64,000 bases of DNA, taken from assembly GCF_021155765.1 (NCBI RefSeq), contig NC_060114.1:14393501-14457500 (forward strand). Reading direction: 5' to 3'. The translations under genes and the position numbers were made by a program. The number at the start of each line of letters is the position of its first letter. Within the stretch, counting starts at the first letter, position 1. This document shows positions 2,942-57,443 of the stretch, one piece after another. This DNA is from Diprion similis. Lineage: Eukaryota > Arthropoda > Insecta > Hymenoptera > Diprionidae. Under the pieces are notes generated by a model that had not been told where the DNA came from, ran no database searches, and saw only the letters and a program-made list of their open reading frames with translations.

Positions 2942-3099
2942 CTATAACGATGGATCTACCACATGGCCACTAAACAACGATACTATGTCTCCATCTTCAT
3001 CGGAGCTGCTTTGCGTCAAAGATACAATCATGTAAACAAATGGGTGGTCGACTGCTAGTTCAGCTGAAAATATCATGCATCGAGCCTGCAGCATTATTC
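2942..3099 (-). CDS. Serpin A alternative terminal exon 2 (RCL cassette, P1 Arg)
   Basis: The exon follows a tttcag acceptor and enters in the phase that completes the codon begun by the G at the end of the serpin A exon 4356-4491. It encodes 52 residues plus a TAG stop. The start reads GIMLQARCMI, so counting from the hinge the predicted P1-P1' pair is Arg-Cys. The serpin C-terminal signature follows as VDHPFVYMI, then an unusually long acidic loop (SSSDEDGDIV) before LFSG. It closely resembles the most distal serpin B cassette (9795-9952), including the RCMI motif and the long loop. It is 3' of the other serpin A terminal exon, so the two would be mutually exclusive. A trypsin-like target is inferred. 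Confidence 0.8.
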
Positions 3100-3715
3100 C
3101 TGAAACGTGAACATTATTTACATATAGTTTGTAATAATGCATAAGTAATTTTAATAGTGAGATTGTTTTGATAAACATAAATGAAATGCAGTACGATTTG
3201 ATTTCGGATTAAAAATTCTGTATGTATCGTAACTACAATAGTTTCTGGACATTATCTGTGACAACTGGAAGTTTTTCTTTTTTTTTTCAAATTCTTTCAC
3301 GTAACCAGACTTCACCAGATTCATCTGTAGCTAGTAATTACTTCTCACACGGTTCAGTAAAAAAGAATCGAAGTCATATTCTGAACAGTCACAGGTAGTC
3401 TGATAAATAAAGACAGTATTTCTAGTCTATCATATAACTTCATAGTATTATGTAGATTATATCTTCATGCGAGTTAATCAAGATATCAAGATTTCACTCA
3501 GTAACAGATAATACTTTATTGTGATATATTATGTACATTCAAAGCTAGTCATTTATATCGTAGTAAAAACTATGCCTGTAAAACAAGTTAATAATCGCGT
3601 ATAAGCACTACAATGTGCGTGACAGTTTGTGATGCAGTTAAAAAAAAGATCATAATTCCGAAAAGAGCTGGAATGAAATTAAGTTTCTGTCACAAAATTG
3701 ACAAACAAAATTAAT

Positions 3716-3861
3716 TTACATTAAGTCAGGTTCTCGAATAATTCCTGTGAATAAAGATATTCCAGTGCCGTGATGGTATATTGCATAATGACAAGGTCGA
3801 TCGACTTTGAATGTCAACGGGGGCTCCCCGATAAATGCGCACATTTTAACGACGACTATAC
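3716..3861 (-). CDS. Serpin A alternative terminal exon 1 (RCL cassette, P1 Met)
   Basis: The acceptor gtttag at 3862-3867 is followed by a phase-matched exon of 48 residues and a TAA stop. It starts [10 protein letters not shown], so the predicted P1 is Met with Cys at P1'. The signature [12 protein letters not shown] and the closing LFTGIIREP are standard for inhibitory serpins. It is the first terminal exon met by the splicing machinery after the constant exons. Confidence 0.88.
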
Positions 3862-6190
3862 CTAAACAAAAAAAGACAACTGTCTTGAACATTTCAACCA
3901 GCAAGTATTATTATTTATAAATCAAATAAGCAGTGTATGCAGAATTCTGAGGATGAAAGACATTTTATAGCTCATTTTGTTAATACGAAGATGCAGAAGA
4001 TTAGTGGTGAATTATGACATTTATTTTTGAATATAATTATACCTACGATAATTAATTGAAGTTGCGTGCAAATTAAGTTTAATTCATCTTAAATCAATAG
4101 TAACGTACATAATAAATATGCGATAAGAAATTGTGAAGGAAAAAAAACTACTGCTAGATCGTAGAACTCGATTGGTATATACAATATTGTTGTAAGAACT
4201 TTAAAAAGTATGTGAAACTAATGTCCAAAAAATATTGCAGAAAATTAAATGAAGCGAATGAAGAGGGAAATTGTAATATGTGATTGATGGAGGGAAGGTA
4301 CAGGATTGAATTAGGCTCAGCGCCCTGCTGTGATGTTCACAGAACTTTGACTTACCAGTCGCAGCAGCAGCTTCGCTACCTTCCTCGTTTACTTCAATGA
4401 ATGCTTTTTGAATGACTTTGCTAACTTGGAGTGGAACATCAGATATGCCAGAGAAGTCAGCCTCTTCTTCGAACATGTCGGTCATTCCGAGCTAAAAGGA
4501 GGCAACGTGTATAGTATTTAAAAAAATAATTGGTAGATCAAACTTCTTATGCTTATTGTTAGTTATTCTAGGATGGGACTTGTTAAAATCATATGAATTC
4601 GACAGGACCGCAGCGCCAAAAGTTAGTTAACTCCTTCCAGGAGTTCTAATATACCCAAGCCGATGCAGAGGAATTCGACCAGTTGCTTTTTACAATGAAA
4701 AGTTGCGTTGCGCTTTGTATGTTACCTTTTTTAGTGTCTCTTGGAGATCTAAAGTACTTTCTATCTTGAATTTTGGTAAGAAGAGCTCGACGTCGCTGGG
4801 ATACGATTTTTGCAAACTTTGTTTCAGATTTACTTGATGAAGATTGTCCTGAATTTTTTGGAGGCCGTTCACTTCGTACGGTACAATGATTATCATGCTG
4901 AGCTCGTCCCCCTGGAATAGAAAAAATTTATAACATTTAGTGAAGCAGATTATGCTACAAATCTCTGTTAGTGAATCACTAGATTGATTGATTGATTAAC
5001 ATCAATATTCACACATCCAATTAGTTCTCGAGTCTGTATACCTGGTATGGAATCTCGATGAATCTCGCACTCAATTCCGGAAGATCGCCAAATCGCAGTT
5101 TATGTTTTATAAACATGGTAGGTACACATTTTGTAGTGTGTTCATCGATGTGGAAAGGTCTATCCTTCGTCAAGGCGGGATTGAATTTTTTGTCCCATTG
5201 TCCCTTAAAATATACTGCGTTCACAAGTACCAATTTTGTGCATGAGTCGATGCTATCTGTAAACAGAGACTCGGTTAAACGTGTTAAAAAGTTCAATGAC
5301 TCCAGAAGTGCTTCATGCACGAGGGAGATTACAATTCCAACAAAAGTTGCCAGATCCAGTTACAAACATAAAGATTCACCTTCGGTAATCAAATCCTTAA
5401 TACGTTTGTTAGTTTTCTCCTCGCACCAAGTATTGATTGTTTTGGCAGCTTTTGTCGAGTCGTTGAAATCAACTTCCTCGCTCGAAGAGTAAAATTTTTC
5501 AGCGGTCAACACTTTGTACTCAGGTTTTACTTCAAACTGAGAAGCTGTGTATATTTTATTGGCAAGACGTAATTCCACTCCTTTCACAGCCTGAAAATAA
5601 TTCCTGTCAAATTCTTTCTAAAATAAAGGTGAAGTAGCAGAATATCACACGCAAGCATGAACAAAGTGAAACTGCTGCCGTGCAGGTCTTAGAAGCTATC
5701 AACATCAGAATAAATTCTTTGCATTACTTACGTTCAAGGTTTCGATAAGAGACTGATAACCAGATTGGCCTACTTCATTCTCAGTCGGAATGAATAAACA
5801 AGAGCGCATTTGAGTTGCGGTTCTGCCACCGGCCCCGTAGGCAGCCATCGCCAGCACTACCTGAGCGCTCAACGGCGACATGATTAAGTTGCCAGGTTTG
5901 TCATTACCGACGGTCTGAAATTTCAAAACATTGAAAAAACTGTGTTCAACAATCCGTACAAAGTTACAAAACTAATTAAAATCCTTGTAAATTTTATCAT
6001 TTACAAGTTTTGCAGTTCGAAGAGAAGAAAACATGAAATGTATATATAACATACAAATGTGTATCAGAGAATTTTTGTCATCATTAAAGAATCTGAGCGA
6101 AGTAATTGCATTTAAACATACCTTTAAAAAATTGTTACCAAATTGGCCAGTAGTTTCAGCTACGGCATGAAGTCCAACGTTTCCAGCCAT
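3716..6190 (-). CDS. Serpin A (proximal terminal exon form)
   Basis: A serine protease inhibitor of the serpin fold that traps its target protease through cleavage of the RCL. Coding exons on the minus strand: 6190-6122 (from ATG), 5914-5732, 5590-5380, 5266-5042, 4911-4726, 4491-4356 and 3861-3716, all with GT-AG borders, giving about 381 residues. Family marks are [10 protein letters not shown] near the N-terminus, [11 protein letters not shown], the shutter/breach segment [17 protein letters not shown], and [12 protein letters not shown] near the end. The proximal RCL exon reads GIVVVKMC, giving predicted P1-P1' Met-Cys. The odd point is the signal peptide. Serpins B and C encode one in the equivalent exon (up to 6243), but here that segment carries two in-frame stops (TAA at 6239-6241, TGA at 6200-6202). 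Translation would have to start at the ATG at 6190, predicting a cytoplasmic serpin, or else the copy is decaying. All later exons look intact. Confidence 0.85.
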
Positions 6191-7585: not shown

Positions 7586-8015
7586 TCGATACCACTATTT
7601 TTTTTTTTCTAATCGCTGTGGACGCATTGGAGGGGGGTCACCGGTAGTATAAATAAATCCAGAATTTTGGCCACATTCATTCTGCAGTAGCTTCAGCCGC
7701 CATCTTGAATGTATAAGGAATTTGTTTTCATTAAATAATCCATTCATTCTCGAATTTAAACTAAAAACGGTCAGACTAAACTTGTAGGAAATTTAACCTT
7801 ACGTGATTCAATCTTTTACAACTTTGGTATGAACAATATTTTGCCTACGATCGATATTTTCCGACGTAAGCCGTAAATTCAAGATGGCGGGCGAAGCTAC
7901 TGCAGCATCTGGTTGAAATTCTGGGCTTTTGTGCTGTATTTTGACTATCAAAGCCCCCCCCCCCCTCCCCCCCACCGCGGTGCTCGACAATTAGAAAAAG
8001 AATAATGGTATTGAA
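7586..8015. mobile_element. TIR (MITE-like) element in serpin A upstream DNA
   Basis: The two ends are imperfect inverted repeats: left tcgataccactattt...tttctaatcg, right its complement around attagaaaaagaataatggt. Inner inverted blocks include ccagaattttggcc/ggttgaaattctgg and gcagtagcttcagccgccat/atggcgggcgaagctactgc. A cytosine run lies at about 7952-7973. There is no transposase frame. It lies in a stretch absent from the homologous relic copy, so it inserted after the duplication. Ends are approximate. Confidence 0.55.
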
Positions 8016-8040
8016 ACATTGCCATTTCAGGTTTTTCTTT

Positions 8041-8132
8041 GGGGCCGTCCAGAAACTACGTTGTTAGTTTGAGGGGGGGGGGGGGGGGGGGGGCTAAAGC
8101 GCAAAACTGGTAACATAGTCCATGGACGGCCC
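8041..8132. mobile_element. Short MITE with gggccgtcc inverted ends
   Basis: A 92-bp element starting ggggccgtccagaaactacg and ending catagtccatggacggccc, so the ends are inverted copies of about 10-15 bases. It contains a guanine run at about 8072-8093. This end sequence looks like a class of non-autonomous insect DNA elements that I recall from several genomes. A T-rich run on both sides could include the target duplication. It sits right next to the 7586-8015 element. Confidence 0.6.
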
Positions 8133-9794: not shown

Positions 9795-9952
9795 TTATCG
9801 CACTGGATTTGTCACACGACCGGTGAACAATGGCACAATATTTTCTACCTGGCCTTCGGCAGTTTTGTGCAATGATGTGATCGCATAAAGGAACGGACGG
9901 TCAACTGAGAATGTTCGCGGAATTATCATACACCGAGTTTCCACAAACATTG
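9795..9952 (-). CDS. Serpin B RCL cassette 1 (distal-most, P1 Arg)
   Basis: Follows a tgtttcag acceptor in the correct phase; 52 residues plus TAA. It begins AMFVETRCMI, giving predicted P1-P1' Arg-Cys and a trypsin-like target. The signature is SVDRPFLYAI, followed by a long loop (TAEGQVENIV) and LFTGRVTNP. The Arg-Cys-Met-Ile core and the long loop match the distal serpin A cassette at 2942-3099, so the two are probably duplicates of one ancestral distal exon. Confidence 0.85.
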
Positions 9953-10470
9953 CTGAAACACAAATATCATTATTCGTCTACTTAGTATATCGGTGAATAG
10001 TTTTTTTTAGTAGAGAATCATTTTTGCGAGTTTAAGATTTATCCCACTTACGGTTAAAACACATGCTTATGAATAAGAAATTTTATTTTTCTGTACCATA
10101 ATGGAAACCAGGTATTTATTTTCTTCAATTCATTCGTAATTGACTACCTAATGATTAGTAGTTAAGCCCCAATGGCGTGAATTTTCGTTCGGTCTCGCGA
10201 TATCTCGATATAAAATTGTCTTATAGCGAATTATGTGTTTGCTGGGAATAGAGGTGATTAAATATACACGATAAGTTAGCCATGCGGTTGAATTTATTCG
10301 AATCTTTAATGATACGATTATAATTTTTTACCACAAAACAAAGCACATATCGAGCCGCTGATTAATTGATTTTGTCCAAATCTGTGTACTTAAGAAAGGA
10401 ACGTAAATATGTTGCATAAAAGTTTCGATTGAACGTGTTTTACGACACTTTCATCACTTTCGTCCAGTAA

Positions 10471-10598
10471 TTAGGGTCTGGCGAGCAGGCCGATGGCAAT
10501 GTTTACTCCGCTGGAAATATGTCTAATAGCGAAGAGCGCCGAGTGATCAACGTGAAAAACTTTTGTAACTCGTTCCATCTTGAATCTCAGAATGACCG
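10471..10598 (-). CDS. Serpin B RCL cassette 2 (P1 Lys)
   Basis: Follows a gcttgcag acceptor; 42 residues plus TAA. It begins AVILRFKMER, giving predicted P1-P1' Lys-Met. The signature is degenerate (FHVDHSALFAI), with Ser-Ala in place of Pro-Phe. It ends in IGLLARP. It is one of the shorter cassettes. The reading frame is open and phase-matched, so I treat it as functional, though the weaker signature leaves some doubt. Confidence 0.75.
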
Positions 10599-10879
10599 CT
10601 GCAAGCATGAGAAACAAAAAAAATAAATAACAAAGAATATTTTCGAGATATTGTTACACCCGGACATGAAATAATTGGCGATACTCTACACCACATTCAG
10701 GTTTGTTCTTGGATTGGAAACATTATGACAGATCGTGAGTCACGCTTATTATTATTGCAAGGATTTTATTCTTTGGACAATTACGAGCTTTTGTAAAGAT
10801 CGTACATAAAATCAATCTATATAAATTTAAAAACAGTAACACGATTATTCATTCATTATTAGTATCAGCCTCGGTGATG

Positions 10880-11013
10880 TCATAACGTGGGTGTGGTAAC
10901 GAGAGAAAAGAATATCAGGATCTCTCTCCACGTGACGATCGTTAGAAAAGGATGATCAATGTTCAGGCGTTGAGTATTTTCATCGAATAACAATCTGTAG
11001 CGCAATGTTTCAC
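10880..11013 (-). CDS. Serpin B RCL cassette 3 (P1 Arg, divergent)
   Basis: Follows a ttttag acceptor; 44 residues plus TGA. It begins GETLRYRLLF, giving predicted P1-P1' Arg-Leu. The signature NIDHPFLTI is recognisable, but the tail (FFSLVTTPTL) lacks the usual F-x-G, so it is the most divergent of the open cassettes. Phase and length fit the array. Confidence 0.6.
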
Positions 11014-11344
11014 CTAAAACAAATACAGTAGACGGTTATAACAGCATTAGAAGCATATCGATTAACGGTCAATGCTGGCATTAATATAGACTGACGATAA
11101 GTTGGGTATAAATTATTTCTTCCAAAAGAGAATAAAAAATGCCGACGTTGTTGAGTAAAACGAAAAATAAGCTGATGGACGTATAAAAATTTGTAAAATA
11201 AGACCCATGAGAGTGAAAAAAAATTATTCCCCCTTATGCAAAAATTATATCCAGAGACTGATTGTCTCGGGAATAATTTGAGGCAATGAATTTTAAGTAA
11301 GTGATAAATATTAACCGGTCTAATTATCGTATTTTCGTACCTTT

Positions 11345-11481
11345 TTACAGCCCCTTGTGCACTCCTGTGAAAATTGGTACATTTTGGGTTACAGATCTGA
11401 TTTCGTAATGGTAGGGACGATCGACCTTGAATACTGGAATGTTGTACGGTTCGAACAAACTGTAGGTCACTATCATGCCAA
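11345..11481 (-). CDS. Serpin B RCL cassette 4 (P1 Tyr)
   Basis: Follows a ttttgcag acceptor; 45 residues plus TAA. It begins VGMIVTYSLF, giving predicted P1-P1' Tyr-Ser, as expected for a chymotrypsin-type target. A complete signature FKVDRPYHYEI and ending IFTGVHKGL make this one of the best-preserved cassettes. Confidence 0.87.
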
Positions 11482-12219
11482 CTGCAAAATAGCAGATGCA
11501 AAATTACTGTAATTAATTAATAGGAGAAGAATGCGGGGCAATCAATGAGGAGTTTTGATTCGGTGAATTCTCATTTCCATTCTTCTAAACTCAGCATCTC
11601 TGTAAAAACTATGAAACATGGGAGTATAAAATATTCAATTTTACTTCGGTGAAGATTTTTTCCGTTCGTTTTACTAGAAATTTAATTTTTTTTTTTTTTT
11701 ACAATTGCATTCTGTCATTAAAGATAAAAAAAAAGAACGGAAACCCCCACGAGAAGCGTAGCATTTTTGATAACAATGAAGAATACAAATTCGTACCGAG
11801 CGATTTTTATGCAAATAATAATATAATTTAATAAGAGTAATTTACCACATACAGGAATTTTCATGCAAGTTATCTAAAGCGATAGTTTAAAAACAAACAA
11901 ACCAACAATAATATAATTCATTTATTGAGTCAACATATATTTCATGCTGATATCGTTTATGCATAATGAAACTAAAGGTATAATATACGTACAGATTTAT
12001 ACCTATTACGTAATAATAGAAAATATAATTATTCGAAGTTATGATTGACGTCGACAGACACATCAAACATCATGTTATAATAAAGTTGTCGTGTATAATT
12101 ATTCTTCGTCTGATGAAGTATGCATATATAATTAGCAATGATGATAAATGAATTTTCGAACTCGTTAATTTCTACAACTTCCGAACTGATGAGAAATGCC
12201 GAGAGGTATCCGCGTCGGA

Positions 12220-12356
12220 TTAATTTGGCCGAACGACCGAAGCCTCAAAGAGTACAATTTTCGTTCGCATGTGAGTTACGCATGCTATGAATGCCTTGTC
12301 CACTGAGAAGACATGTGAGTCAAGTGGATCCATCGACATGGGTCGGATGAAAGGTG
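12220..12356 (-). CDS. Serpin B RCL cassette 5 (P1 Met)
   Basis: Follows a tttacag acceptor; 45 residues plus TAA. It begins APFIRPMSMD, giving predicted P1-P1' Met-Ser preceded by Pro at P2. This is the same P2-P1' pattern as human alpha-1-antitrypsin (an elastase-type site). The signature is altered to FSVDKAFIACV, and the tail reads LFEASVVRP. Open and phase-matched. Confidence 0.75.
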
Positions 12357-12904
12357 CTGTAAAGGACAAAAGATGACTAGTCTGAACTTGTTTCAATTCA
12401 CAGAATAATTCTAAACACACGAAAACACAGTCGGATCAAAAAAAAAACCTTCCATCAATTGACTGTGGAAATGATAAGCAAATGTGTGGCATTATAAAAA
12501 ATACTCAGAGTTGAAAGGAAAATCTCTCCGAAAGTAAGTATGTACTCGAGTTATCGGTTCTTTTGTTTTCTTACTCTGAGATTAGATATCGACTCGTTCC
12601 AAAATGGGGGTTGAGTGATAACTGAAAAATTTATGGCACAAACTTACTCAACAGGTCTATCCTTTTATTGATAATATAATTGAAGCGGTAAATAAATTCC
12701 GCTACTCGTTGTACGCGTATTATTGTACGATATTTTATACCTAAATGGTGAAAGGGTTTTCCAGTTATAAACATGTGCGTTCTTCAAGTTTGAAAGAAAA
12801 GTTATTTATTCGATAATCATAAAAAGATTAATGTACAAAAATTTCAAAGGTCGTACTAAAGTTTATTTCATATCACCGTTTTAATATTAAATCAATTCAT
12901 GCTT

Positions 12905-12985
12905 CGTTGTACGATGCACAAAATAGAGGTAATAATAATAGTAATAGTAATAGTGATAGTAATAGTAATAATAATAAAAAACCAC
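12905..12985. repeat. AAT/AGT-type trinucleotide repeat
   Basis: A run of aataataatagtaatagt-type triplets at about 12929-12978, immediately 3' of cassette 6 on the coding strand. A second pure AAT run lies at about 13204-13224. Simple-sequence repeats only; no function inferred. Confidence 0.7.
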
Positions 12986-13137
12986 TTATATTAAGGTCGG
13001 TAGTCGAACCTTGCCATTGAATAAGATGGTTTTGTATGGCCGATGATATATCGCATAATAATAAGATCGGTCGACCGCAAATATTTCCGTCTGGGCAGGA
13101 TGTCTAACAATTGCGCTTAATGCAAGAACTTTCAAAA
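12986..13137 (-). CDS. Serpin B RCL cassette 6 (P1 Leu)
   Basis: Follows a tttccag acceptor; 50 residues plus TAA. It begins VLKVLALSAI, giving predicted P1-P1' Leu-Ser. The signature is FAVDRSYYYAIYH with LFNGKVRLP after it. Within the array it resembles the proximal serpin A cassette in the AIYH block. A chymotrypsin-like target is inferred. Confidence 0.84.
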
Positions 13138-13424
13138 CTGGAAAAAAATCAAATCATAAAAAATGACCCTGCTACGTTAAAATGAAAACAATTATAGTAT
13201 AAAAATAATAATAATAATAATAATATCAATGGTAGCGGTAAAAATGTTTACACCTGTAATGAGGAGAGGAATAAAAACACACCATCAATATTCCATGACT
13301 TGTATAACAGTATGTGCGGTTTACAGAGTGAATTACTAACGATGCACCTTCCGTCGTCTGCTAAAATTTAATGCGTTAGTGCCACGGTCCAATAGCGACT
13401 GCGTCGTAAATTTAGACGACAACT

Positions 13425-13535
13425 GGCGGCGATATGTATAACCTCAAAATTTTTTACAGATGTAAATTGAGCATAAGTGCCAGCGATAACTGTCAAGAAT
13501 TTTGAGGTTAGCGACAGTTGGTAGCCCTGGCAAAG
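13425..13535. repeat. Short imperfect palindrome
   Basis: The block caactggcggcgatat/aacctcaaaatttttta is followed about 50 bases later by an inverted version around aattttgaggtta/gacagttgg. It may be a small foldback element between cassettes 6 and 7. No coding content. Confidence 0.4.
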
Positions 13536-13773
13536 AGCCACTACTCGGATTGTAGCGCATGCGCATGAAATTTTAGAAATTCACTCTGAATAACACGAAT
13601 ACTTGTACAACTAGATAAGCTTTATTAGAATGATTAGCAAAATATTTGCGCGAAGCAACGTAAGCATGGAAGCATCGTTAGTGTATTGCGTATTAATATT
13701 TCGTAAAAAGACTTGGGTGAAAACTTTTGACCAGACAATTTCAAATGATTGATTCACGATGAAATATCGCGTC

Positions 13774-13922
13774 CTAAGCAAGGATGGGCCGATGAATGAT
13801 TCCAGTGAATAACGGTGCGCCAAATTCTCTATGTTGCATTGCATAATAAGCCGGGTGATCAATCACGAATCTCTCTGGTTTCCGGGGCGGGTGTCTAACA
13901 CGCAGCACTAGAGGTCCGACTA
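13774..13922 (-). CDS. Serpin B RCL cassette 7 (P1 Leu)
   Basis: Follows a acttcag acceptor; 49 residues plus TAG. It begins VVGPLVLRVR, giving predicted P1-P1' Leu-Arg, although the Arg one residue later could itself serve as P1. The signature is FVIDHPAYYAM with PLFTGIIHRP. A proline-rich stretch before the signature (HPPRKPERF) links it to cassettes 8, 9 and 11. Confidence 0.83.
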
Positions 13923-14628
13923 CTGAAGTAAAAGAAAGAGAGAAAAAAGCTTAATAATAACGAGAAGAAATGTGTAGATAGAGTAGAACGAATGCACTAG
14001 CGTGAATAGAATGGACTTTTTTATTCCCGACTCAACCATAATGTCGAGTTCTTCGATCTGAAAAGCGGGACGAGCGTGGCATATTTTTTCCCTCTCAACT
14101 TTTGCGGGAGAAAAGTAGACTTTTGCTCCCGCATTTGCGGGAAAAATTAGTTTTGTGGCAAATATTGATAGGATACGTTACAAATTGATGTCTAATATCT
14201 TAGCTCTCGATATGTGACATTCGGTGAGACTAATTCATAGGAATAACATCCCGTGAATGTGACGAAAATTAGGCCGGCGCTTATGCTGCAGCGTGTTAAC
14301 GCTGTCTGCTTTGAGAAAGTTGAGTTTACAAAATCTCACTGAAATGCGTTTTGCTTAATTATACGATTTATACCGAAGTTCAGACAGTTTAAAAATTGAA
14401 AAATAACGATTTTAGCAAGTAAAAAAAAAAAAAATCGTAGCGTTATATAAACTTATGCTCTTTATTCTAGGATCTCTGTTTTGCTTTAAAAGACATATAT
14501 TTCATCGTAAGAATTGATTATTTGTTATTGTAATAATTTTATTCAAAGCTTAATGAAGTATTACGAGCTGGGAACCGAGTCCGAAAAACCTCGTTAAGTC
14601 TCTGAGATGCAAGTATTTTTCAACCGAT

Positions 14629-14711
14629 GTACACTCGATCACAATGATTCTGAGACGACTAATTTTACCGAAGAGTCAGTTACGTTGGTAACGCTAACCA
14701 CCAAGTGTACA
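14629..14711. mobile_element. Small TIR element (83 bp) of the tgtacact family
   Basis: Ends tgtacactcg / ccaagtgtaca are inverted. The inside (gattctgag, actaatttt, cgttggtaacg blocks) is shared with the larger elements at 14983-15303 and 18954-19100. It lies immediately 3' of cassette 8 on the coding strand and appears to be a deleted copy. Confidence 0.55.
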
Positions 14712-14773
14712 CACATCTGAATAGAGAATCTAACAAAGTGCAACAATTGGTGTAAGCGATTGGATATCACGTC

Positions 14774-14922
14774 TTAAGCAATGGCGGGCTGATGAACAGC
14801 GACAGCGAATAAAGGAACGTCCAAGCTACGATGATAAATGGCAACGTGCGCTGGCCGTTCGACGATAAATCTTTGTGGTTCCGGGGGTGGGAAAACAGCA
14901 CTTGCTGGCATGGCGAAGCCCA
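14774..14922 (-). CDS. Serpin B RCL cassette 8 (P1 Ala)
   Basis: Follows a attctag acceptor; 49 residues plus TAA. It begins VGFAMPASAV, giving predicted P1-P1' Ala-Ser with Pro at P2, an elastase-type site. The signature is FIVERPAHVAIYH and the tail PLFAVAVHQP. It is a recent tandem duplicate of cassette 9, 585 bp away. From the Pro-rich segment onward the two differ at only a few codons, but the P7-P1 region differs strongly. Confidence 0.84.
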
Positions 14923-14982
14923 CTAGAATAAGAAATATATATGTATATATTATTATTCACGAGCGGAGTATAAAAGTCACGA

Positions 14983-15303
14983 TGTACACTTGGTCGCAGT
15001 GATTCTGAAGTGGTTAATTTTTTCGATGAGTCGGTTACGTTGGCAACACATATTAAAAAAGCCTACAACGCCACCACCGACCATAAGAGGCTTAATCTTT
15101 ACAGACATAACTTAAACTGTCACTTGGTTGTATTTTTGTGTTTGATTCAACAGTTATAGGTTATGTTACGTTTTCAAAGATTGAGCCTGTTTCTAGGCCA
15201 GTCCACGGTGGCGCTGCGGTCTGATACTGCATTACCGACGCGAGCGACTTACCGACTAACTTAGAAAATTATCGGTCTCAGAATCACTGCCACCAAGTGT
15301 ACA
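14983..15303. mobile_element. TIR element (321 bp) of the tgtacact family
   Basis: Inverted ends tgtacacttgg / ccaagtgtaca, with subterminal inverted blocks around gattctgaag/cagaatcactg. A second inverted pair inside (about 15058-15220, around acgccacc.ccgacc and gtggcgctg) suggests a nested insertion. Together with cassette 9 it forms the duplicated unit equivalent to cassette 8 plus 14629-14711. No transposase frame. Confidence 0.6.
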
Positions 15304-15358
15304 CACAATAGAATGGAGAATCGAACGGAGTGCAACAATTGGCATTAGGGATTGGATA

Positions 15359-15510
15359 TCACGGCTTAAGCAATTGCGGGCTGATGATAGCGACAGCGAA
15401 TAAGGGAACGTCCAAGCTACGATGATAAATCGCAACGTGCGCAGGCCGATCGAGGATAAATCTTTGTAGTTCCGGGGGTGGGAAAACGGCACCTCCTACC
15501 ACCTTGAAGG
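15359..15510 (-). CDS. Serpin B RCL cassette 9 (P1 Gly), shifted C-terminus
   Basis: Follows a attctag acceptor; 50 residues plus TGA. It begins AFKVVGGAVF, giving predicted P1-P1' Gly-Ala. The signature is FILDRPAHVAIYH. Compared with its duplicate cassette 8, one base is missing after the PLFAVA codons, so the last ten residues are read in another frame and end in QLLKP. The change lies after strand s5B and may be tolerated. Confidence 0.77.
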
Positions 15511-15519
15511 CTAGAATAA

Positions 15520-16431
15520 GAAATATGTATGCACACATTAATATTGAAGGAACGGTGTGTAAAAAGTTGACTGTTCTGAGTTCTGAAAAGTTTATCCGAA
15601 AACCGAGTCTTCATTCTTCAGCAAGCAATGCGGCTGTGTAGAGTCTAACTAAACTTGCATTTTTATTTTGTTTTTTTTCTGTTTCGACGGTTTGGGAAAG
15701 GTTTCAAATAATGGATGTCCAATAATTATAAGTGATATGCGATTTATTTGCGACTATGCTGAAGCCACTTAAGCAGAGGTACAATGGGTGATAATTTGGA
15801 TTAGTGCATGCGTAAAATGCTAATTAAAATGAGTTTCAAGTTTTTACCATTCAGTTCGCAAAAAATTTATGCTATTTTGGAACGATCTGACATTCGGCGA
15901 GACGTGATAAGGGGTAACATATCTCACGTTATAAATTTTCAACACCTTCGAATCCATTTAAAGCTATAGATTAGTAATTTTTCTTTAATGTTTCGTTGCG
16001 TTAACGTTACTGACTTTAATGTCGTTAGTTAGATGTCTAAGCGAAAGCGTAAATTAACTAAAATATGTGAATAACCGCAGCGTTGATAAGTAATTTAGGA
16101 ACGGTACAGCTTTCGAGTTGAGCTTTTAGAAATTGCTTGAAATGTCAGGTATTACGAGAAGTTCAAAAGTGTTTGGATTTTTTTTTTTTCCTGTTATCGT
16201 TGTCGAAATTTTGTACTGAGAAAATGGAATAGGAGAGTACGTAGAAGTTCTTTGATCGCATATAAATCGTATCACCGTAGAATAAATGCAAAAATTTTAG
16301 TTAAACAAATCTGAAACCATGTTTAATTTAATGGGTTAAAATCTCTCCGAGTAAGAATAATTTTATTCGTTATAAAAAATAATTGAGAATCGAATTGTTG
16401 TGATCGATATACGATTTGAAGACACTACATT
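15520..16431. other. Intron/spacer between cassettes 9 and 10
   Basis: AT-rich, with no VDRPF-type motif on the minus strand and no clear repeat. It is part of the long composite intron downstream of the constant exons. Confidence 0.4.
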
Positions 16432-16559
16432 TCATGAAAATTTTCTAACAACGCTGACATATAGTGGGAGGTCCAGATTACGATGATATATGGCACAATA
16501 CACCGGTCGGTCAACCGCGAATATATTTGGCGGAAGATCAAGTCTTTGCACCGAAGATC
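16432..16559 (-). CDS. Serpin B RCL cassette 10 (P1 Leu)
   Basis: Follows a ttttag acceptor; 42 residues plus TGA. It begins GSSVQRLDLP, giving predicted P1-P1' Leu-Asp, although the preceding Arg could act as P1 if the loop is one residue shorter. The signature is FAVDRPVYCAIYH, and the tail LYVSVVRKFS lacks the usual F-x-G. Open and phase-matched. Confidence 0.78.
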
Positions 16560-17116
16560 CTAAAAATTAAAGAGAAAAATTGAAATTAAGCATAGAATGA
16601 ATCGCAGTTAATTGCATGATACGAAGGTTACCAGTATAAAAAAAAAAAAACGCGTGCCAATATGGAATAAATTTGGGTAATCAAAAACGCCTTCCACCAA
16701 TCGTAAGAAAAAGCATATATATTACAAGTGTAATACTTAAATTTGTCAAACACATCTCGACGAATCATGCATCTTATCGTGTGAGAAACAGCGTTTCGAT
16801 TAAATGCTGGGAAAAAATCATCGCCATACTAAAGACTGGGCGAAGCTTTTGCAGAATAATGTGTATTACACAAGTACAAGAGATTCCTGAAGGATTGAAA
16901 AAATAATATTCAAGAAGGAAAACGATAAGGGAAGAATCTGAAAGTGATTCGAAGTATTCGATGTCATGGAAATGGATACAAATAAAATCCGTTGTTGCAT
17001 GTAAACACGGATAAACACAGTAAATTATACGGATAATTATTAATGTCTAGTTTCTGAAAATTTCACGCTATCTGTAGGGCGGTTTAGTTTTTGAGAGATC
17101 GTTGAGAATGAACGTT

Positions 17117-17265
17117 TTACGCAGAGATTGGAAAGTGAAGAACGCCTGTGAGCAAGGGTAGGTCCAAGTCACGGTGGAGTATCGCATAAAATATTTGTCG
17201 ATCAACCATAAATCTTTTTGGTGGTGGGGGTTGATAATTGGCGCTGACTGGGATGAGTATGAATC
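17117..17265 (-). CDS. Serpin B RCL cassette 11 (P1 Val)
   Basis: Follows a cttctag acceptor; 49 residues plus TAA. It begins GFILIPVSAN, giving predicted P1-P1' Val-Ser with Pro at P2, an elastase-type site. It has a run of prolines (QPPPPKRF), then MVDRQIFYAILH and LLTGVLHFP. Related to cassettes 7-9 through the proline-rich block. Confidence 0.82.
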
Positions 17266-17797
17266 CTAGAAGAAAAATAACATATTACGTGTAAGATAAA
17301 TATCGCAGTAACGCATTTATTTATCACATGACGCAATGCATGGCTATCAATTTCTACAAATATACATACAAGTGATAGGAAATCTGGACTAATCTTAAAA
17401 AGTTTGGTGACAGAATCAAGCTTTCGAACGATTCAATTGACTGATACGTTTCTGGAAATTGGTTGACAGCTAATTTTTTAGATTAAATTTAGACTGAGAA
17501 CAGCGGGATGATAAAATCTTAAATACTTCTTCGCAATCAGGGATAAAAAGTGGATCCAACGTACCTAGAAATTAGACCGAAAGCACGGAGAAGACGAGAC
17601 TCTGGACGAGAATAATTAATGCTTGGATTACAGGTGCGTGGAGAAGCGTATATAAGGCATAAAGGAAATGAATAATGAAGTATGTTTATTAGTATAACTA
17701 TTTGCGAAAAAAAAAAATCTTGCATTACCCCGTACGCTGAGTATTTTATAGAACATAGGTATGTCTAATTTTGGCATAAACTAATCCATGGAAATAC

Positions 17798-17946
17798 TCA
17801 TGCGGTTTGAGACACAGGTTGATACAGATTTCCGATAAATAAGACTGTGTTAAGATTCCGATGGTATATCATGTAACAAGCTGGCTTGTCGATGGAGAAT
17901 ACTTGCTGAGGCTTAGGCATCGCCATGCCAGGCAGAACGTGGATCA
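17798..17946 (-). CDS. Serpin B RCL cassette 12 (P1 Gly)
   Basis: Follows a ttttccag acceptor; 49 residues plus TGA. It begins VIHVLPGMAM, giving predicted P1-P1' Gly-Met; a Met at P1 would need a one-residue shift. The signature is FSIDKPACYMIYH and the tail LFIGNLYQP. Open and phase-matched. Confidence 0.8.
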
Positions 17947-18563
17947 CTGGAAAAATCACGCATCATATCATACCGTAGTAGTTTCATCACACGTGACATT
18001 GATTTGTTTTGAATACCCCTGTAGCGTGAATCAATCTTGCAATAATTTGCAATGAAAAAAAAAATTTGTCAGAAGTATCGCAAAGCCGAGCCGTGATTTA
18101 AATTTCGAAAATTCGTACACTCATGAGTACAAATGTGTGTGTATATATTCGACAATTTTGGAACGGGATATTAAATTGGACCTAAATAGAATTTGGTGGA
18201 AAATTTATTCCCTTTTCGAATATATTTTACGACCTTATTTTATTAGCCTATTTTACAAACTATACACATGATGTAGCCGTGCATTTCAGAGACAAATATC
18301 CGAAAACCAAAGATTGCTAACGAAAATTTCTTGTCGTATTTCTAATGATTTCTAATGTATGAACAGATCATTCCTCGTGTGTTAAAATTTACGGTAAGAA
18401 GCGACGACAAATTCGTGAAACCCCCGAATTAAAAACACGAAACGGTGAGGTTCGTTTTGAGAAAAAAAAAACAATAAAAAAAAAAACAAAAAACAATCTG
18501 TTAGAAGAGGTAAAAGGCCAGCAAGTGAAACAAAAATGTCCATCAGATTCATCTCACCGAGGC

Positions 18564-18715
18564 TTAATTCTTATGCGAATCATTTCCTGGGTCTCGTACT
18601 TGCCCTGCGATTATCGGCACGGTCTCTGCCTGAAGAAGGAAAAGTATAAAAGGCCGGTTCACATTCAAGATCGGTATCTTGTTCGAGATATCGAAAGAAC
18701 GCCGTCCGCTCAATC
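18564..18715 (-). CDS. Serpin B RCL cassette 13 (dibasic Arg-Arg-Ser)
   Basis: Follows an aatgcag acceptor; 50 residues plus TAA. It begins GLSGRRSFDI. Strict counting puts Ser at P1, but the Arg-Arg pair just before it makes a basic-specific or proprotein-convertase-like site plausible. The signature is LNVNRPFILFL, with Asn for the usual Asp, and the tail IIAGQVRDP. Somewhat divergent but fully open. Confidence 0.72.
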
Positions 18716-18953
18716 CTGCATTACATAAACGTGAGAATATATGTACGTGTTTCATTAGACGATAATAATCTCAAGAAATACAAGATTAGAGTGTGGATTC
18801 CGTAAGTAAATCCCAGATTACCAAGAAAAACGCTCAATAATATCATAAACAATGGATTACTCATGAAATATTACCAATAAGTTTTGATTTAAAGAAGTTG
18901 AAATGTACGTACACGCATTTGCAAACAGAAGTAGTTAAATAGATTGCCTACAA

Positions 18954-19100
18954 ATGTGGACATTAATTCAGAGTCAATTATGTTGGTAACGCTAATTCAG
19001 CCTGCGGTGCCACTGCAATACCGACCGACCGCTACGGGCTGAATCTACGTTACCAACGGAATCGACTCTACCGAAAAAGTCAAAGAATTAACGTCCACAT
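18954..19100. mobile_element. TIR element (147 bp)
   Basis: Inverted ends atgtggacattaattc / gaattaacgtccacat. A second inverted pair inside surrounds gttggtaacg and cgttaccaac. The inner sequence is related to the elements at 14629 and 14983. It sits in the serpin B intron between cassettes 13 and 14. Confidence 0.6.
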
Positions 19101-19584
19101 GTGTACATATACATCTAATTATTTGAATATAAGAGAAAAATAATAACGGATACTGGAAAATTGTTCAGTGTTAATTATTCCGTGAAATAAAACATAGTAA
19201 ATTGATGTAAAAATGACTATAAAAATTATACCTAGTAGTCAAAAGATTAGGAAGAAAAAATTGTTAACCTGTATTGACGAAGTAGAAATGTTCCTTGCTA
19301 GAGTAGTTTTCTGTACCGAACGCGTTAAACCTTGAAACGAAAAGATGGGTAAGATAATCTGAACATGGCGATACAAAGAATCAGTCACTCAATTTTGAGT
19401 ACCTAACTAAACGCTGTTTTTACATTACACACATCCTTAGGCAGGAAGTAAGAAAGTCGAAATTCGCTGACAATAATTTAATTTTAAAGAGCTATATTTG
19501 TATTTTAACCGAATGCTTCATGGAATTAATTCACAGGCCATAAACGTACATCACGTAAGCACGTCTTATAACTTTGTGAATAAT

Positions 19585-19721
19585 TCACGGTAGTGTTGGG
19601 CTTGAAATTTGGCCAGTGAATATCGGAGAATCCAATGTGCGATGGGTAATCAAGTACAGGAACGGTCGATCCACTTTCATTTCTTCTTGGGGCGAAAGAG
19701 ACTCGAGCGTCAATATCAATC
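19585..19721 (-). CDS. Serpin B RCL cassette 14 (P1 Glu)
   Basis: Follows a gtgacag acceptor; 45 residues plus TGA. It begins GLILTLESLS, giving predicted P1-P1' Glu-Ser, an uncommon acidic P1. The signature MKVDRPFLYLITH and tail IFTGQISSP are complete. It forms a sequence group with cassettes 15 and 16 and the two broken cassettes nearby. Confidence 0.84.
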
Positions 19722-20031
19722 CTGTCACAGAAATATTTATATCTCAGACACGACTGACATCATGGATGTCACGGATGTCATGATGAACAAGATATGAAAC
19801 CAGCGAGTGTCGTAACGGATTTTTTTCGCGCAAAAAAATTTCCCGGTTTTGCATCTCAGGGAAGCCATTGGAAACGCGGAGAGAAAGTGAAAATCGGTGA
19901 TAATGAATTGCACTATCGACACTGTGTTAAAAAATTCTTTTTATTCCCTACGAATCACTTTAAACCATGCAAAGAGTATACATTATAATAATATGCTTAA
20001 AATTTCATCTTGGACGAAAAGATTGGATACA

Positions 20032-20168
20032 TTATAGCGTCTTTGGACTCGAAAGTTTTCCACGGAATATCGGAGAATCCAATTCACGGTGCAGGATCGA
20101 GTAAAGGAATGGTCGATCTACTTTGATCTCTTCTAGCCACGGCGCCATTGGAGGGACGAATTCAATTT
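20032..20168 (-). CDS. Serpin B RCL cassette 15 (P1 Pro)
   Basis: Follows a gcggtag acceptor; 45 residues plus TAA. It begins EIEFVPPMAP, so strict counting gives Pro at P1 and Met at P1'. A Pro P1 is unusual, so the true site may be shifted to Met. The signature is IKVDRPFLYSILH, with IFRGKLSSP after it. Confidence 0.8.
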
Positions 20169-20229
20169 CTACCGCAAAAAGAATCAAACGCGAAACTATC
20201 AGTAAAACGAGAATAGACGCATGCGCAAA

Positions 20230-20357
20230 TCAACATTGAGGTTTTATAATAATCGGCTGGAAATTCAATTTCCGATGCATTATTGATTAGTGGAATGGAC
20301 AGTCCATCATGATACTCGAAAACTGCTTGCGTGATCCATGCAAATACCAAACAGTGA
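20230..20357 (-). pseudogene. Broken serpin B RCL cassette (in-frame stop)
   Basis: Between cassettes 15 and 16 an AG acceptor with correct phase opens an exon that aligns end to end with cassette 15. The signature has decayed to MMDCPFH and is followed by TAA (20287-20289), where intact copies have the second aromatic residue of PFLY. Reading past the stop gives SIMHRKLNFQP and then a normal terminal TGA (20230-20232). Confidence 0.75.
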
Positions 20358-20646
20358 CTAGAGCAGATTGTCCGCATGTTTTATGGAGTGAAATATGTAG
20401 TCGAAAGGGTAAAAATGGAGAAACTTTTTCTACTCGATTGATCGTCATGAAAACGTTGCAAAAGAAATGTATGAAAATTTTTATCAATGCTAGTGAAACT
20501 TGATCTGTCATCTTCAAGCAGTCTCTTTATTGCGATAAAATATACAGATTCAAGTAAGAGTCGATACACCATACATAATATTGGGTACGACAAAAGTAGT
20601 CTTTTTATATAACTTCAAAGACTACAGGCATATAAAAAAAGATCAT

Positions 20647-20786
20647 TTATACTGTGGTTGGATTCAGAACCTGGCCGGTGAACAATGGAGACTCCAATTC
20701 ACGATTGAATATCAAATAGAGATACGGTAGATCCACATTGATTTTCTTTCGCTGAGGAAGTGCACTAGTCAGTACAAACTCAAGTT
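20647..20786 (-). CDS. Serpin B RCL cassette 16 (proximal-most intact, P1 Thr)
   Basis: Follows a ttgcag acceptor; 46 residues plus TAA. It begins ELEFVLTSAL, giving predicted P1-P1' Thr-Ser, an elastase-like site. The signature is INVDLPYLYLI, with Leu in place of Arg, and the tail LFTGQVLNP. Of the intact cassettes it is nearest to the constant exons. Confidence 0.82.
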
Positions 20787-23102
20787 CTGCAAGAACAATA
20801 GAAGATCGAAATAAAATGGTTTAAAATTTTACAAGAATAAGGGAGACAGAATTTCTCTATCACAGCTTGCAATGCATCACGAAATCACAGTATGAGAATT
20901 AGGGCACCAAACTGAATGGTAAACTACACGTGAATATCGTTTTTGTGCCAAAATCACGGTGCAAATGTTACTCCAAGTTTGATAGTTACGCGAGTCAGTA
21001 TAGATACAATCTATAAAAATTATTGAAATCGATGAGAAAAGTAGAGAAACCCGTCTCACTGTTGACGTGATAAAATGGTAAAAGGAAAATAGAATAACTA
21101 TGAGAGTACTGGGCGCAGATCCCTATTACCGACAGTTACCGACGTCACCGAGGCACAACCGTTTTTCTAAGATTTATCTACGTTCCTCTTGAGATCGCTG
21201 ACATTTTGTATCTTGTATAATATTAAACGAACAGTTTCAATATCGGCGCCTTTTTTCCGGCACAGTCAAATTCATACGTATATATACGTATACGTAATTC
21301 ATAGACTGGAGAAATGATCTATTCACTCCGATTTAGGTCGATGAGAGAGGTTTAATCGGAATAAAAATTATCCCCATAATTTTGATCGCTGCCACATAAA
21401 CAATTACTTAATACCGAATGCTTGCAATAAATTTTAAAATGATGAACGTCTCCAATACTGAACACGAAACGAAATATGGACGCTGTAATCTGCATGCGTC
21501 TACAGACATGTTATAACAAATTCGCACTACCTTTACACCGTAGAGTTAGTATATTCATATGAAGTAACCGTGTCATTGGATGGTGTCAATAAATATTCTT
21601 CCTGTACGAAAATTATACGCATGTGGTATAATGTTGAGAGCACGTCTTGGACGACTAAACAAAATTAGAGATATCTGGAAACTACATGAATAATCAAGTA
21701 AAGGAATGGTTGAATCACCTTGATTGCATATATCTGTGGACGTGAACACGGCAGGAATCCGAATTCTATTTCATAAATAGTTATTCAAATAGGCATACAA
21801 GTATTTATGTCAACTGCTTATTAAAAATCTCATACAACAAGTAATAAGTCGTCCATTTTGACATGCATGCATATTCAGACGCAGTCTCAAAACCGATGAC
21901 GAGAATTATCTAGTGCGATTTGAGTAAAAATAAAAAACAGTCGATATCAGATGGTTTTTTGAAACAGATATCGAATCTGTTTTCCGAAGAACTATTCTGC
22001 ATCAAACGATGTCATTACTCTTCATTCGTAAGAATCGAAGAGTGATTTTATACCGAGAATAAAATGAGTAATAGAAAATTTTGTAACCTTGTCCTGAATC
22101 CCTGATGTTTAAGTTGATTAATTAAAAATCGTTTGTTCCGGACAGCAGAGTAGAGATGATTATTTCGCTAATTAATAAGCAATTAATTAAATTGATCAAG
22201 CGCTAGAAATTTATATAGTATAAATGTTGGAAAAGTTATAAGCAAGCAATTGTATTGTAACTATGATAAGCAGGTAAAGATCAGAAAATTGTATAACTTA
22301 CTTTGCAAATTCTTCATTATCTTCTGTCACAATATACGTGATATTGATATTATTCACTCTCATGTATACGAAAGAAAATTATCAAAACGCTGCTCACACG
22401 AAGTTGTGTTAAGTAAATTTTAATTCACACTTCCACATCAGTAACTGGCACGTCAAATTTGCAAGTAAAATACCTTCAGAAATTAGCATGAGATACTTGC
22501 ATTACTTTATCGCATTACAGAGTTTAGTTGAGCAAGCGAATAATAATAGAGATGTTTTAGATGAAATGAATAATGAATAAAAAGATTTTCTATTGCAAAT
22601 TCTTTCCAGCAATAAATTACTACATACAAAAACATGCCATTTAATCCTGAACACTTGTAAAGGATGTTAGTTATTCAACCCATTCGCACGACGATATTCT
22701 TCCGAATAATTTGCCAGCAGTATGCATCATTAGTTAAAATTAGTGCAAACAAGTGTTATCTCAATTTTTTTTTCTTTTTTTTTTTTTCTTTTAGTGACGT
22801 ATTTACTAAATATGTAAAATTCTGTAAACTTGTTACGAACAGGTTGAACATAGGGATAAAATTTCCACCACAAGACTATTTCTGGTATTTGTAAGAAGAC
22901 AAAAATAGCTTGAAATAAGTTTAATAGGTATAAAATGTGTAGCCAGAGATGATGGAATTATTGGAAAGAGAATCAAAGCTCCCCATATTGCTGCATGCAA
23001 TAAAACGAAGGAAGGAAACAACAAGAAAAATAGAAATTGCTGAATGATAATCAGCTCAACCAGGGTTCTCCACACTTTTAAAAGAAGGGTCAATTGACTC
23101 AC
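20787..23102 (-). other. Serpin B intron between constant exons and the first intact cassette
   Basis: About 2.3 kb of AT-rich intron containing the broken cassette at 21665-21765 and no other signature. Bases 22275-22320 resemble the first 50 bases of the window, which supports the left edge being duplicated serpin intron. Confidence 0.5.
21665..21765 (-). pseudogene. Broken, truncated serpin B RCL cassette
   Basis: An acceptor in phase opens EFGFLPCSRP, followed by KVIQPFLYLIIH, clearly the VDRPFLYLITH block of cassettes 14-16 with Asp-Arg changed to Ile-Gln. The frame then shifts and stops after 33 residues, before the IFTG tail. Position and similarity mark it as a dead member of the array. 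Confidence 0.7.
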
Positions 23103-26100
23103 CAGTAACGGCGGCTGCTTCGCTACCTTCCTCGTTAACTTCGATGAAAGCCTTCTGAATAACTTTGCTAATTTTGAGCGGAACGTCAGCCATGCCAGAG
23201 AAGTCGGCGTTATTTCCGAACATATCAGACATTCCCATCTGAAACGAAACGCAGTGAATAAAAGCAATCGTGTAACCGTGAATAAAAAATAAAGACAGAA
23301 ATAACTGAGAAAAGCAAAATAAAATTAAATAAATAACAATCGGCTTTGTTGTACGAAACCAAATTGTTGAAATATTAGAGATATACCTTTGTCAAAGATT
23401 CCTTAAGGTCCAGTGTTGATTCGATCTTGAATTTCGGAAGGTACAACTCAACTTCACTTGGATAGGAGCGTTTCAAGCTATCGGTTAGATTCACGTTATG
23501 GAGGTTATCCTGTACGCGTTTCAGTCCATCGACTTGATTCGGCAGAATGATGATCATGCTGAGTTCTTTACCCTGAAGATGAGAAAGAAATGCTATAATT
23601 CCACGCCTTGAGAGCGTATAAAAATTTTCATCTTCCTTAACTTTTCGTCCCAGCACACAATTCAAAATTGTTCAGATTCAGTTTGGTTACAGAAACAGAT
23701 TGAAGAAAAGCTGAACGATCCTCTCAACGGTGTTAAAAACACATCATACTTCGATAATATTGTAAAAATTTTTCATCAAAAGTTACGGAAAAAGGAGTCC
23801 ATTTTTGGTCAGACGAGATAACTGTCTCACAAATATGTTGTCACTATTGTCTTTCCTCTTTGCAGAACATACCTCGTACGGTAGTTCGATGAATCTTGCA
23901 TCCAATTCCGGAAGAACTCCGTACCGGAAGCTTGCCTTCATGAACATAGTGGGGACATTAATGGTAGTTCTTGTATCAACGTGGAAAGGTCTGTCTTGAG
24001 TCTTGGTCGGGTCAAACTTTGTGGCCCAGTTACCCTTGAAGTAAACGGCGTTCACAAGAACCAGGGTGGTGTCAGGAGTGAGGCTATCTGTGTATAAAGA
24101 ATTGAGAAACAGTAGCACAAAAATCTAACAGGAATTGATTGGATCGCACAATCAAATGTACCTGGTTTAACCACATCCTTGATACGATGGTTAGTCTTCT
24201 CTTCACACCAAGCGTTTATGCTAGCAGCGGCAGTGGCTCCACGGGCAAAGTCAAGACTTTCCGTTTCCGCCAAGAACTTTGAAGCAGTTAATGCCTTGTA
24301 CGAAGCCTTTACGGGGATCAAGTTCGAAGTGTAGATTTTATTGGCGACCTTTAGTTGAACGCCTTTCACAGCCTGAAACGATCAGTGTCCTTCATTAATT
24401 GGAAGACTCCAATGCAATGCTTGCAAAACAAAAATTCATTCAAACTGCGGTGAGAAAAGATTGTTTAGAACATATCGAGATGCAAATTCCCGCTTACTAG
24501 ATACTGGTAAGAATATTCTTTAAGATCAGTGACTGCATCATCATTCTATCACTTTATAATTCCTTCGTCGAATATCATGGAGCAAGTTAGTCCAATAATC
24601 ATGAAATAGTGAAACGAATCATCAGCTTAACTTACATTCAACGATTCAATCAGCGACCTGTAACCAGATTGACCAAATTCGTTGTCGGCAGGAATTCCGA
24701 GAGATGATCGCATCTGCGTGGCAGTTGAACCACCAGCTCCATAAGCAGCCATGGCAAGAACAACCTGAGCACTCAACGGGGAGGTGATCAAGTTGCCTGT
24801 TTGCAATTCCGCAACCGTCTGTAATTTGAAAATAAACGTTGCTGAATGTGTGAGTTAAGAAGTTTGATTTCATGCATAGAAAAGAATACATGACGAAACA
24901 ATGATTCTTACTTTGTGCTACGAAAGCCCCAGACTTGATACTAGAACTTTCTGCACGTACCTTTAAAAATCCGTTAGAAAATCCATCGGTACTCCGAGCA
25001 ATGGTCCGAAGTGCTTCGTTGCTTTCTACAGCCATGGCGGAAACAGCGAATGCCGCAACGGAAAACAATAATACTGAAACATACGAATATATGTGAAGAA
25101 AATGTTACTGCAGTAGTAAAAAAAATTTTTTTCTTCTTTTCTAGACGATATCATCAGGAAATATTCATACGATTTCATCGACGGTATTAAAAGTATTTAA
25201 AACTTTCTAAATAACGCAAAGTTAGTTTGTCGCTGATCACGTGTTTCGGGTAATGTAATGCATAACTTAAATATGGCTTATGCAGTGAATCGAGTTTAGC
25301 TTGAAAGATGATAAAACTATTGCCGGACCATTTGTACACAAAATATAATAAACTAAGCTGCATCGCTGACTTTACCCTACAAGATAGACCCATTGAGTTA
25401 AAGTACTCAACTGTTTCTATATAAACCAGTAAAACTGGCTGTGTTAAAATTGTTGAATCATTGAGTCGCAATATGCACGTAAGAGTTTGATATTAATTTT
25501 GGATATAAAATGGATATTAGAAATACACGACAAGCCGTATTAAACAAAAACGAATTGGGTCATTCCATTCCTTTATTCTCTGAAAAATATTCAAAAGTAA
25601 AATGTCAATGGATCACCGATCACAGTTACGTTTAAACTTCGTAAACAAACACACGGGAATCGATACCACGATGTAAACAATCCGAAAAAGTTTATTACAT
25701 CAAAGTTGTTAAAATGGTTTAACATATCTGATGGATGAAAACACGACTGACATTACAAAATATTTGAAAACACCTCAAAAGATTAATGTGAAATAAATTT
25801 TCCTCTTTTCAAATTCAATTACATCAGTTGCCGACCGAACGTTTGCTGACGTTACAATAACACAACTGGGTGTAGATCTTAGAAGCATGCCTGGCTATCA
25901 CCACTATACACCGAATGACATCATCAGACAACTTAGGAACCCTCGGTCTATGTGCTAGTGGTTCTACGTGTCTGCGCATGCCTCGATCAGACCGCACCTA
26001 GCGTCATAGAACATCAAAAAATCATCCTTGCATTGCAAATGAAGGAAAATAAACACGGAGGATCTACTTGTTGGGCTTGGAAATCAATAGACAGTGTGCC

Positions 26101-26334
26101 AATTTCACCGTGATATTGTTGCTTCTTAATGACAAGGAAAAATTATCATTAATAATTCATGATAGAAGTATGGAATATACAAATAGTGTTGATGCCCACG
26201 GATTTACTAAGCTGATATGATAATGTCTGAATGAAAATTGGCTCTTTAGTCTCACCTTTGCGAGAATGACGTTTGAACGAGGAAACACAAACAACTTTGA
26301 CAAACCGGCCGGCGAATAACAACCGCTCTAGCAT
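23103..26334 (-). CDS. Serpin B constant region
   Basis: The shared part of a secreted serpin. Exons on the minus strand: 25073-24961 (signal peptide), 24818-24636, 24372-24162, 24087-23873, 23572-23387 and 23238-23103. Seen in order: hydrophobic [68 protein letters not shown] and the hinge [17 protein letters not shown]. The exon stops with one base of the next codon, which the cassettes complete. A candidate first exon (26334-26256) opens with ATG in MLERLLFAG, has a strong gtgaga donor in the right phase and follows an Inr-like site. The resulting leader would be long, so this exon is uncertain. With a 45-residue cassette the protein is about 419 residues. Confidence 0.88.
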
Positions 26335-57412: not shown

Positions 57413-57443
57413 CAAACGTCAGGTATCGAACAACGATAATATC

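Follow-up and report, generated by a model that had tools for sequence, protein, structure and literature searches.

Does a single serpin gene of Diprion similis (Hymenoptera, Diprionidae) specify one protease inhibitor or a whole panel of them? The question is raised by a stretch of 64,000 nucleotides (nt) of this insect (contig NC_060114.1, positions 14,393,501 to 14,457,500 of the forward strand, assembly GCF_021155765.1), which we refer to as the window and in which positions are counted from the first letter. On its minus strand lies a serpin gene, here called gene B, with a constant core followed by an array of 16 alternative terminal exons (cassettes c1 to c16); three further serpin genes, A, C and D, lie in the same window. 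We consider it very likely that gene B is an insect gene of the serpin-1/Spn42Da kind, whose core would be spliced to one of the 16 terminal exons.

The initial annotation had placed six constant exons upstream of the array. All six were confirmed, with AG before and GT after each of them (25073-23103). The exons of the core, together with a candidate for a further upstream exon, were as follows:
26256..26334, minus strand, candidate upstream coding exon (MLER...SRK), the only match to the ATG-to-donor rule given below; 5' limit not set
24961..25073, minus strand, constant exon 1, AG before, GT after and open; a hydrophobic stretch followed by MAVES...
24636..24818, minus strand, constant exon 2, GT-AG borders
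24162..24372, minus strand, constant exon 3, GT-AG borders
23873..24087, minus strand, constant exon 4, GT-AG borders
23387..23572, minus strand, constant exon 5, GT-AG borders
23103..23238, minus strand, constant exon 6, GT-AG borders; ends at the hinge plus one base, with the shared donor at 23103

The donor at 23103 is in phase 1, with one base left over: the core ends in ...GSEAAAVT plus one G, and the split P7 codon is completed by each cassette through a 2-nt entry. The hinge is of the inhibitory type, with small residues at P12-P9, and agrees with nine positions of the consensus given in PMC2770083. An upstream exon was sought between 28.7 and 25.1 kb as an ATG-to-donor stretch of 3-30 codons with a GTRAG donor in the right phase, and 26334-26256, with its in-phase donor, was the sole stretch that satisfied this rule. 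Joined to constant exon 1, it would yield a secreted serpin B; the ATG at MAVES within constant exon 1 could start an intracellular one. These candidate starts would parallel the two N-terminal forms described for PpSerpin-1 of Pteromalus puparum (PMC10513286).

On the minus strand, an AG stood before each of the 16 acceptors proposed in the initial annotation; all shared the same phase and opened frames of 41-51 codons that ran to a private stop. Each cassette below was called on its AG acceptor, phase, open frame, own stop and profile match, and is given with its residues P7-P1 and, after the slash, P1'. P1 was assigned by counting 17 residues from the hinge and is thus predicted from loop length:
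c1, 20647..20786, minus strand, ELEFVLT/S
c2, 20032..20168, minus strand, EIEFVPP/M
c3, 19585..19721, minus strand, GLILTLE/S; Pfam Serpin match of 28.5 bits
c4, 18564..18715, minus strand, GLSGRRS/F; lowest profile score
c5, 17798..17946, minus strand, VIHVLPG/M
c6, 17117..17265, minus strand, GFILIPV/S
c7, 16432..16559, minus strand, GSSVQRL/D
c8, 15359..15510, minus strand, AFKVVGG/A; recent duplicate of c9
c9, 14774..14922, minus strand, VGFAMPA/S
c10, 13774..13922, minus strand, VVGPLVL/R
c11, 12986..13137, minus strand, VLKVLAL/S
c12, 12220..12356, minus strand, APFIRPM/S
c13, 11345..11481, minus strand, VGMIVTY/S
c14, 10880..11013, minus strand, GETLRYR/L; divergent
c15, 10471..10598, minus strand, AVILRFK/M
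c16, 9795..9952, minus strand, AMFVETR/C; the cassette that gene A's last one matches best

Scripted joins of the core to each cassette gave uninterrupted proteins of 377-387 amino acids in 16/16 cases. The exon anatomy, splice phase, reading frames and homology of gene B are shown by the DNA.

We estimated whether the cassettes exceed chance using profiles. A profile of the 16, searched against six frames of the whole window, recovered these 16 and the four cassettes of the other serpin genes, and its next-best match in the window had an E-value of 0.47. When each cassette was left out of the profile in turn (c8 and c9 being dropped together), the scores ranged from 12.9 to 57.3 bits. In 200 copies of the array region generated by a first-order Markov model, the full profile reached 13.1 bits at most. 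Of the 16 cassettes, 15 topped this value; c4, at 12.9 bits, fell below it, and its call therefore leans on its frame, phase and splice site as well. A profile built only from the four sister-gene cassettes detected 15/16 cassettes at E<0.01 (c14, E 0.6). Searched singly with the Pfam Serpin model, 11/16 cassettes matched at E<=10 and c3 alone exceeded the curated cut-off, a sparseness that fits the short length of the cassettes.

Variation among the cassettes was strong in the loop, though not confined to it. The entropy of the alignment was 2.2-3.2 bits in loop columns 2-11 and low at a V/I/L position (1.0 bits), a D/N/E position (0.7) and the near-terminal proline (0.7). As to splicing choice, polyadenylation, inhibition and targets, we infer the following course. 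The common core would be transcribed and its last donor, at 23103, spliced to one of the 16 downstream terminal exons. Each cassette would supply the loop from P7 on, the C-terminal serpin strands, a stop and probably its own polyadenylation site. One gene would in this way give rise to a set of suicide protease inhibitors that differ at P1, probably aimed at haemolymph proteases of immunity.

Several observations weigh against so simple a picture. A number of C-terminal columns are as variable as the loop (up to 3 bits), so constraint reaches only part of the scaffold. Cassettes c4, c12, c14 and c15 are divergent (12.9-23.4 bits when left out of the profile) and the near-terminal proline is missing from c7 and c13, so a few cassettes may be weak or unused. 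The residue counted as P1 is proline in c2 and glycine in c5 and c8, a sign either that the loop is set in another register or that inhibition is poor; c2, c4, c5 and c8 all fit the counted P1 poorly and may use a different register. Finally, 6/16 cassettes have no AATAAA within 250 nt of the stop.

Relatives of the predicted protein were sought in the PDB with phmmer, using the core joined to c3. The best natural relatives were 4p0f (E 1.4e-77), 1sek (5.4e-77) and 1k9o (5.7e-77), with three designed conserpins ranking just ahead of 4p0f. These entries are Drosophila Spn4 isoform B, Manduca serpin K and alaserpin, a Manduca serpin-1 form, respectively. The arrangement of Manduca serpin-1 and Spn42Da, which the initial annotation had recognized in this gene, is accordingly supported by anatomy, phase, hinge boundary and the closest solved structures. 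A pattern search for the gene B core among viral contigs returned three matches, none of which was confirmed.

Among 731 insect genes of the clade, 192 have C-terminal alternative exons and 161 of these 192 are spliced at the hinge end plus 1 nt (PMC10513286), the position of the cassette boundary in gene B. A close parallel is PpSerpin-1, in which the core likewise runs to GSEAAAVT plus one G before an alternative last coding exon and every one of 21 C-terminal forms was confirmed by reverse transcription PCR (PMC10513286). Its isoforms, also named PpSPI1, have seven common exons and a variable exon 8 (PMC5691223), comparable to the six constant exons and one candidate upstream exon of gene B, followed by a cassette. 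Expression and inhibition were shown for PpSerpin-1 and are predicted for the 16 cassettes of gene B. Manduca sexta serpin-1, with 14 forms (PMC5691223, PMC10671500; 12 in an older paper, PMC1761132), has in common with gene B a single core of related sequence and alternative exons for loop and C-terminus. Other published counts, which 16 exceeds, are at least 6 for Cydia serpin-1 (PMC10671500) and 4 for Bombyx. Drosophila Spn42Da (Spn4) shares the alternative 3' exons on one core and the setting in a tandem serpin cluster; it has four reactive-centre-loop sequences against 16 cassettes here, or 11 isoforms when N-terminal forms are counted, and is made with or without a signal peptide (PMC2770083); gene B has candidate starts for both forms. 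The suggestion in the initial annotation that the array is at least as large as the best-known examples stands against the 14 forms of Manduca but not against the 21 of PpSerpin-1; 16 is therefore large, not a record.

The cassettes would have been born by tandem duplication and lost by decay. Cassettes c8 and c9 are 84% identical over 279 nt, extending into the introns, and are the product of a recent duplication. Their nonsynonymous and synonymous divergences are 0.36 and 0.18 in the first 12 codons and 0.24 and 0.33 over the whole exon, with too few sites for a claim of selection. Adjacent cassettes resemble each other more than expected (mean similarity 0.292 vs 0.212 by chance, a value reached in 0/5000 permutations, c8/c9 pair included), and similarity drops with distance (rho -0.245, P 0.015; with c8 left out, -0.205, P 0.041). 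The cassette tree has mostly low support, and only two of its groupings were used, c8 with c9 (97) and c1-c3 apart from all the others (87). Two probable relict cassettes, absent from the list of the initial annotation, were also detected:
21684..21746, minus strand, probable relict cassette, reading IKVIQPFLYLIIHVVSRYL and then a stop; nearest to c2/c3; nhmmer E 0.0028
20260..20318, minus strand, possible relict cassette, reading DCPFH, an in-frame stop and SIMHRKLNF; nhmmer E 0.0046

After these two, the next nhmmer match outside known cassettes had E 0.29. The relict at 21746-21684 is 80-81% identical to c2/c3 over 32-35 nt (blastn, E 0.002), scores a z of about 9 against 300 letter shuffles and belongs to repeat family D6 at 78%. 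That at 20318-20260 is the weaker case, because its blastn match to c2 reaches only E 0.96 while unrelated places reach E 0.007. Together with the fresh c8/c9 pair, the relicts suggest gain and loss within one array. Within the array we also observed a short element (18970-19069) with 33-nt terminal inverted repeats, 82% complementary and 34 nt apart. Related arms are found again at 14672-14697 and 15027-15052, so several cassette introns probably harbour a small mobile element of the inverted-repeat type.

How the transcripts end bears on the choice between private terminal exons and another plan. Manduca serpin-1 forms share exon 10, and the cassettes of gene B might be mutually exclusive internal exons joined to a common 3' untranslated exon, which is the plan of the lepidopteran serpin-1 genes with ten exons. 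In Cydia serpin-1 it is exon 9 of ten that varies (PMC10671500), and a donor-like motif lies within 150 nt past the stop in c3, c4 and c8. The remaining 13/16 cassettes lack such a motif, so that gene B, unlike the lepidopteran plan, has no consistent donor past its stops. With donor-like motifs after only 3/16 stops, private terminal exons fit the 3' ends better. AATAAA occurs within 250 nt past the stop in 10/16 cassettes, a modest excess over the background of 0.317 per random same-strand window (0.342 antisense; binomial P 0.011 against the same-strand value). Three distances were tried, and the counts at the other two were 7/16 at 150 nt (P 0.031) and 11/16 at 300 nt (P 0.010). On these grounds the shared 3' exon seems unlikely, and private terminal exons in the style of PpSerpin-1 are favoured over a variable ninth exon of ten.

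It is more improbable still that most cassettes are kept but little used, with one or a few main products and the others being splicing noise or in decay. The two probable relicts, the low profile scores of c4, c12, c14 and c15 and the missing near-terminal proline of c7 and c13 would agree with this, but neutral decay would soon break open frames, and 16/16 are intact together with acceptor, phase and stop. A few positions of the fold also remain constrained, and in PpSerpin-1 the full set of 21 forms is expressed (RT-PCR; PMC10513286). The last alternative, that the cassettes are leftovers of separate serpin genes in tandem, their core exons having disappeared or fallen into assembly gaps, draws on the presence of genes A, B and C on one strand of the window. 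The initial annotation had stated that no core serpin exons lie between the cassettes. This was borne out by tblastn with the core proteins of genes A, B, C and D (that of D partly misframed), in which no hit beyond the four serpin genes had an E-value under 0.48; no other gene's core is therefore seen among the cassettes. The window contains no N, and all 16 cassettes have one phase, which matches the donor of gene B. We assign this explanation a negligible probability and retain the reading of gene B as one core with 16 exchangeable ends.

Control of cassette choice by Dscam-type pairing of a docking site after the donor at 23103 with selectors was sought in this one species and found no support. 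The screen took 127 windows of 28 nt, placed every 14 nt from 23102 to 21300 (21300-20787 was left out), and tested their pairing with the 222-350 nt that precede every one of the 16 acceptors. The mean energy of the best two windows lay under that of all 381 composition shuffles in the screen. On retesting of these two with 900 dinucleotide shuffles each, P was 0.45 and 0.11 for the mean energy and 0.087 and 0.089 for the weakest of the 16 pairings, and both paired somewhat more strongly with sense than with antisense stretches. We read these results as lending no support to competing-RNA control by a docking site.

The sister serpin genes of the window were placed as follows:
2942..6190 (from ATG), minus strand, gene A, six constant exons; cassettes 3861-3716 and 3099-2942; 5' limit of exon 1 not set
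35094..36912, minus strand, gene C, six constant exons; one cassette, 35230-35094
53480..55912, plus strand, gene D, one cassette, 55755-55912; exon limits approximate

Core identity with gene B was 65.8% over 336 aligned residues for gene A, 54.9% over 346 residues for gene C and about 35% for gene D, the model of which is partly misframed. Genes A, C and D, with 2, 1 and 1 cassettes, use the same hinge boundary as gene B. The last cassette of gene A matches c16 with a pairwise z of 21.2 (next best 9.6); both have extra residues before the last strand and both have R/C at P1/P1'. The tree sets this cassette by c14 (support 56), not c16, which counts against the link. The first cassette of gene A has near-equal scores to c10, c7, c11, c9 and c6 (z 12.8-14.7), and its top identity in the multiple alignment is to c16 (42%). 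Genes A and B may thus descend from a gene with two or more cassettes, with later gains in B or losses in A. Gene A lies downstream of B on the same strand, and its acceptors at 3861 and 3099 match the B donor in phase; a transcript reading through from B could therefore take the cassettes of A as well, for 18 ends in all. We give this use of the array as a shared pool only a slim chance; if true, the cluster would be one modular inhibitor locus with 16:2:1:1 cassettes instead of separate genes.

By eye, the signal-peptide frame kept by B and C seems to be closed in the region before the start codon of gene A (6260-6190), and gene A may therefore be intracellular only. Between B and A, 7954-8093 on the minus strand contains a tract of about 21 C and another rich in G, with a similar C tract near 38.18 kb. 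Elsewhere in the window, two tandem ecdysteroid-kinase-like genes lie on the plus strand at 57396-58946 and 60525-62061; Pfam EcKL matches both pieces of the former, and the latter was assigned by the sequence of its open reading frame alone. Two related membrane-protein-like open reading frames on the plus strand, 40816-41571 and 44640-45308, had no Pfam match at E<=0.001 and presumably resemble insect odorant receptors.

Gene B adds a large new array to the insect serpins, of a type familiar from moths, flies and wasps, and leaves the principle unchanged. Exon duplication and gene duplication are reported to be inversely related across insects (PMC10513286). With its array standing beside three paralogues that have the same boundary and 2, 1 and 1 cassettes, the locus allows duplication of exons and of whole genes to be compared in one compact natural setting.

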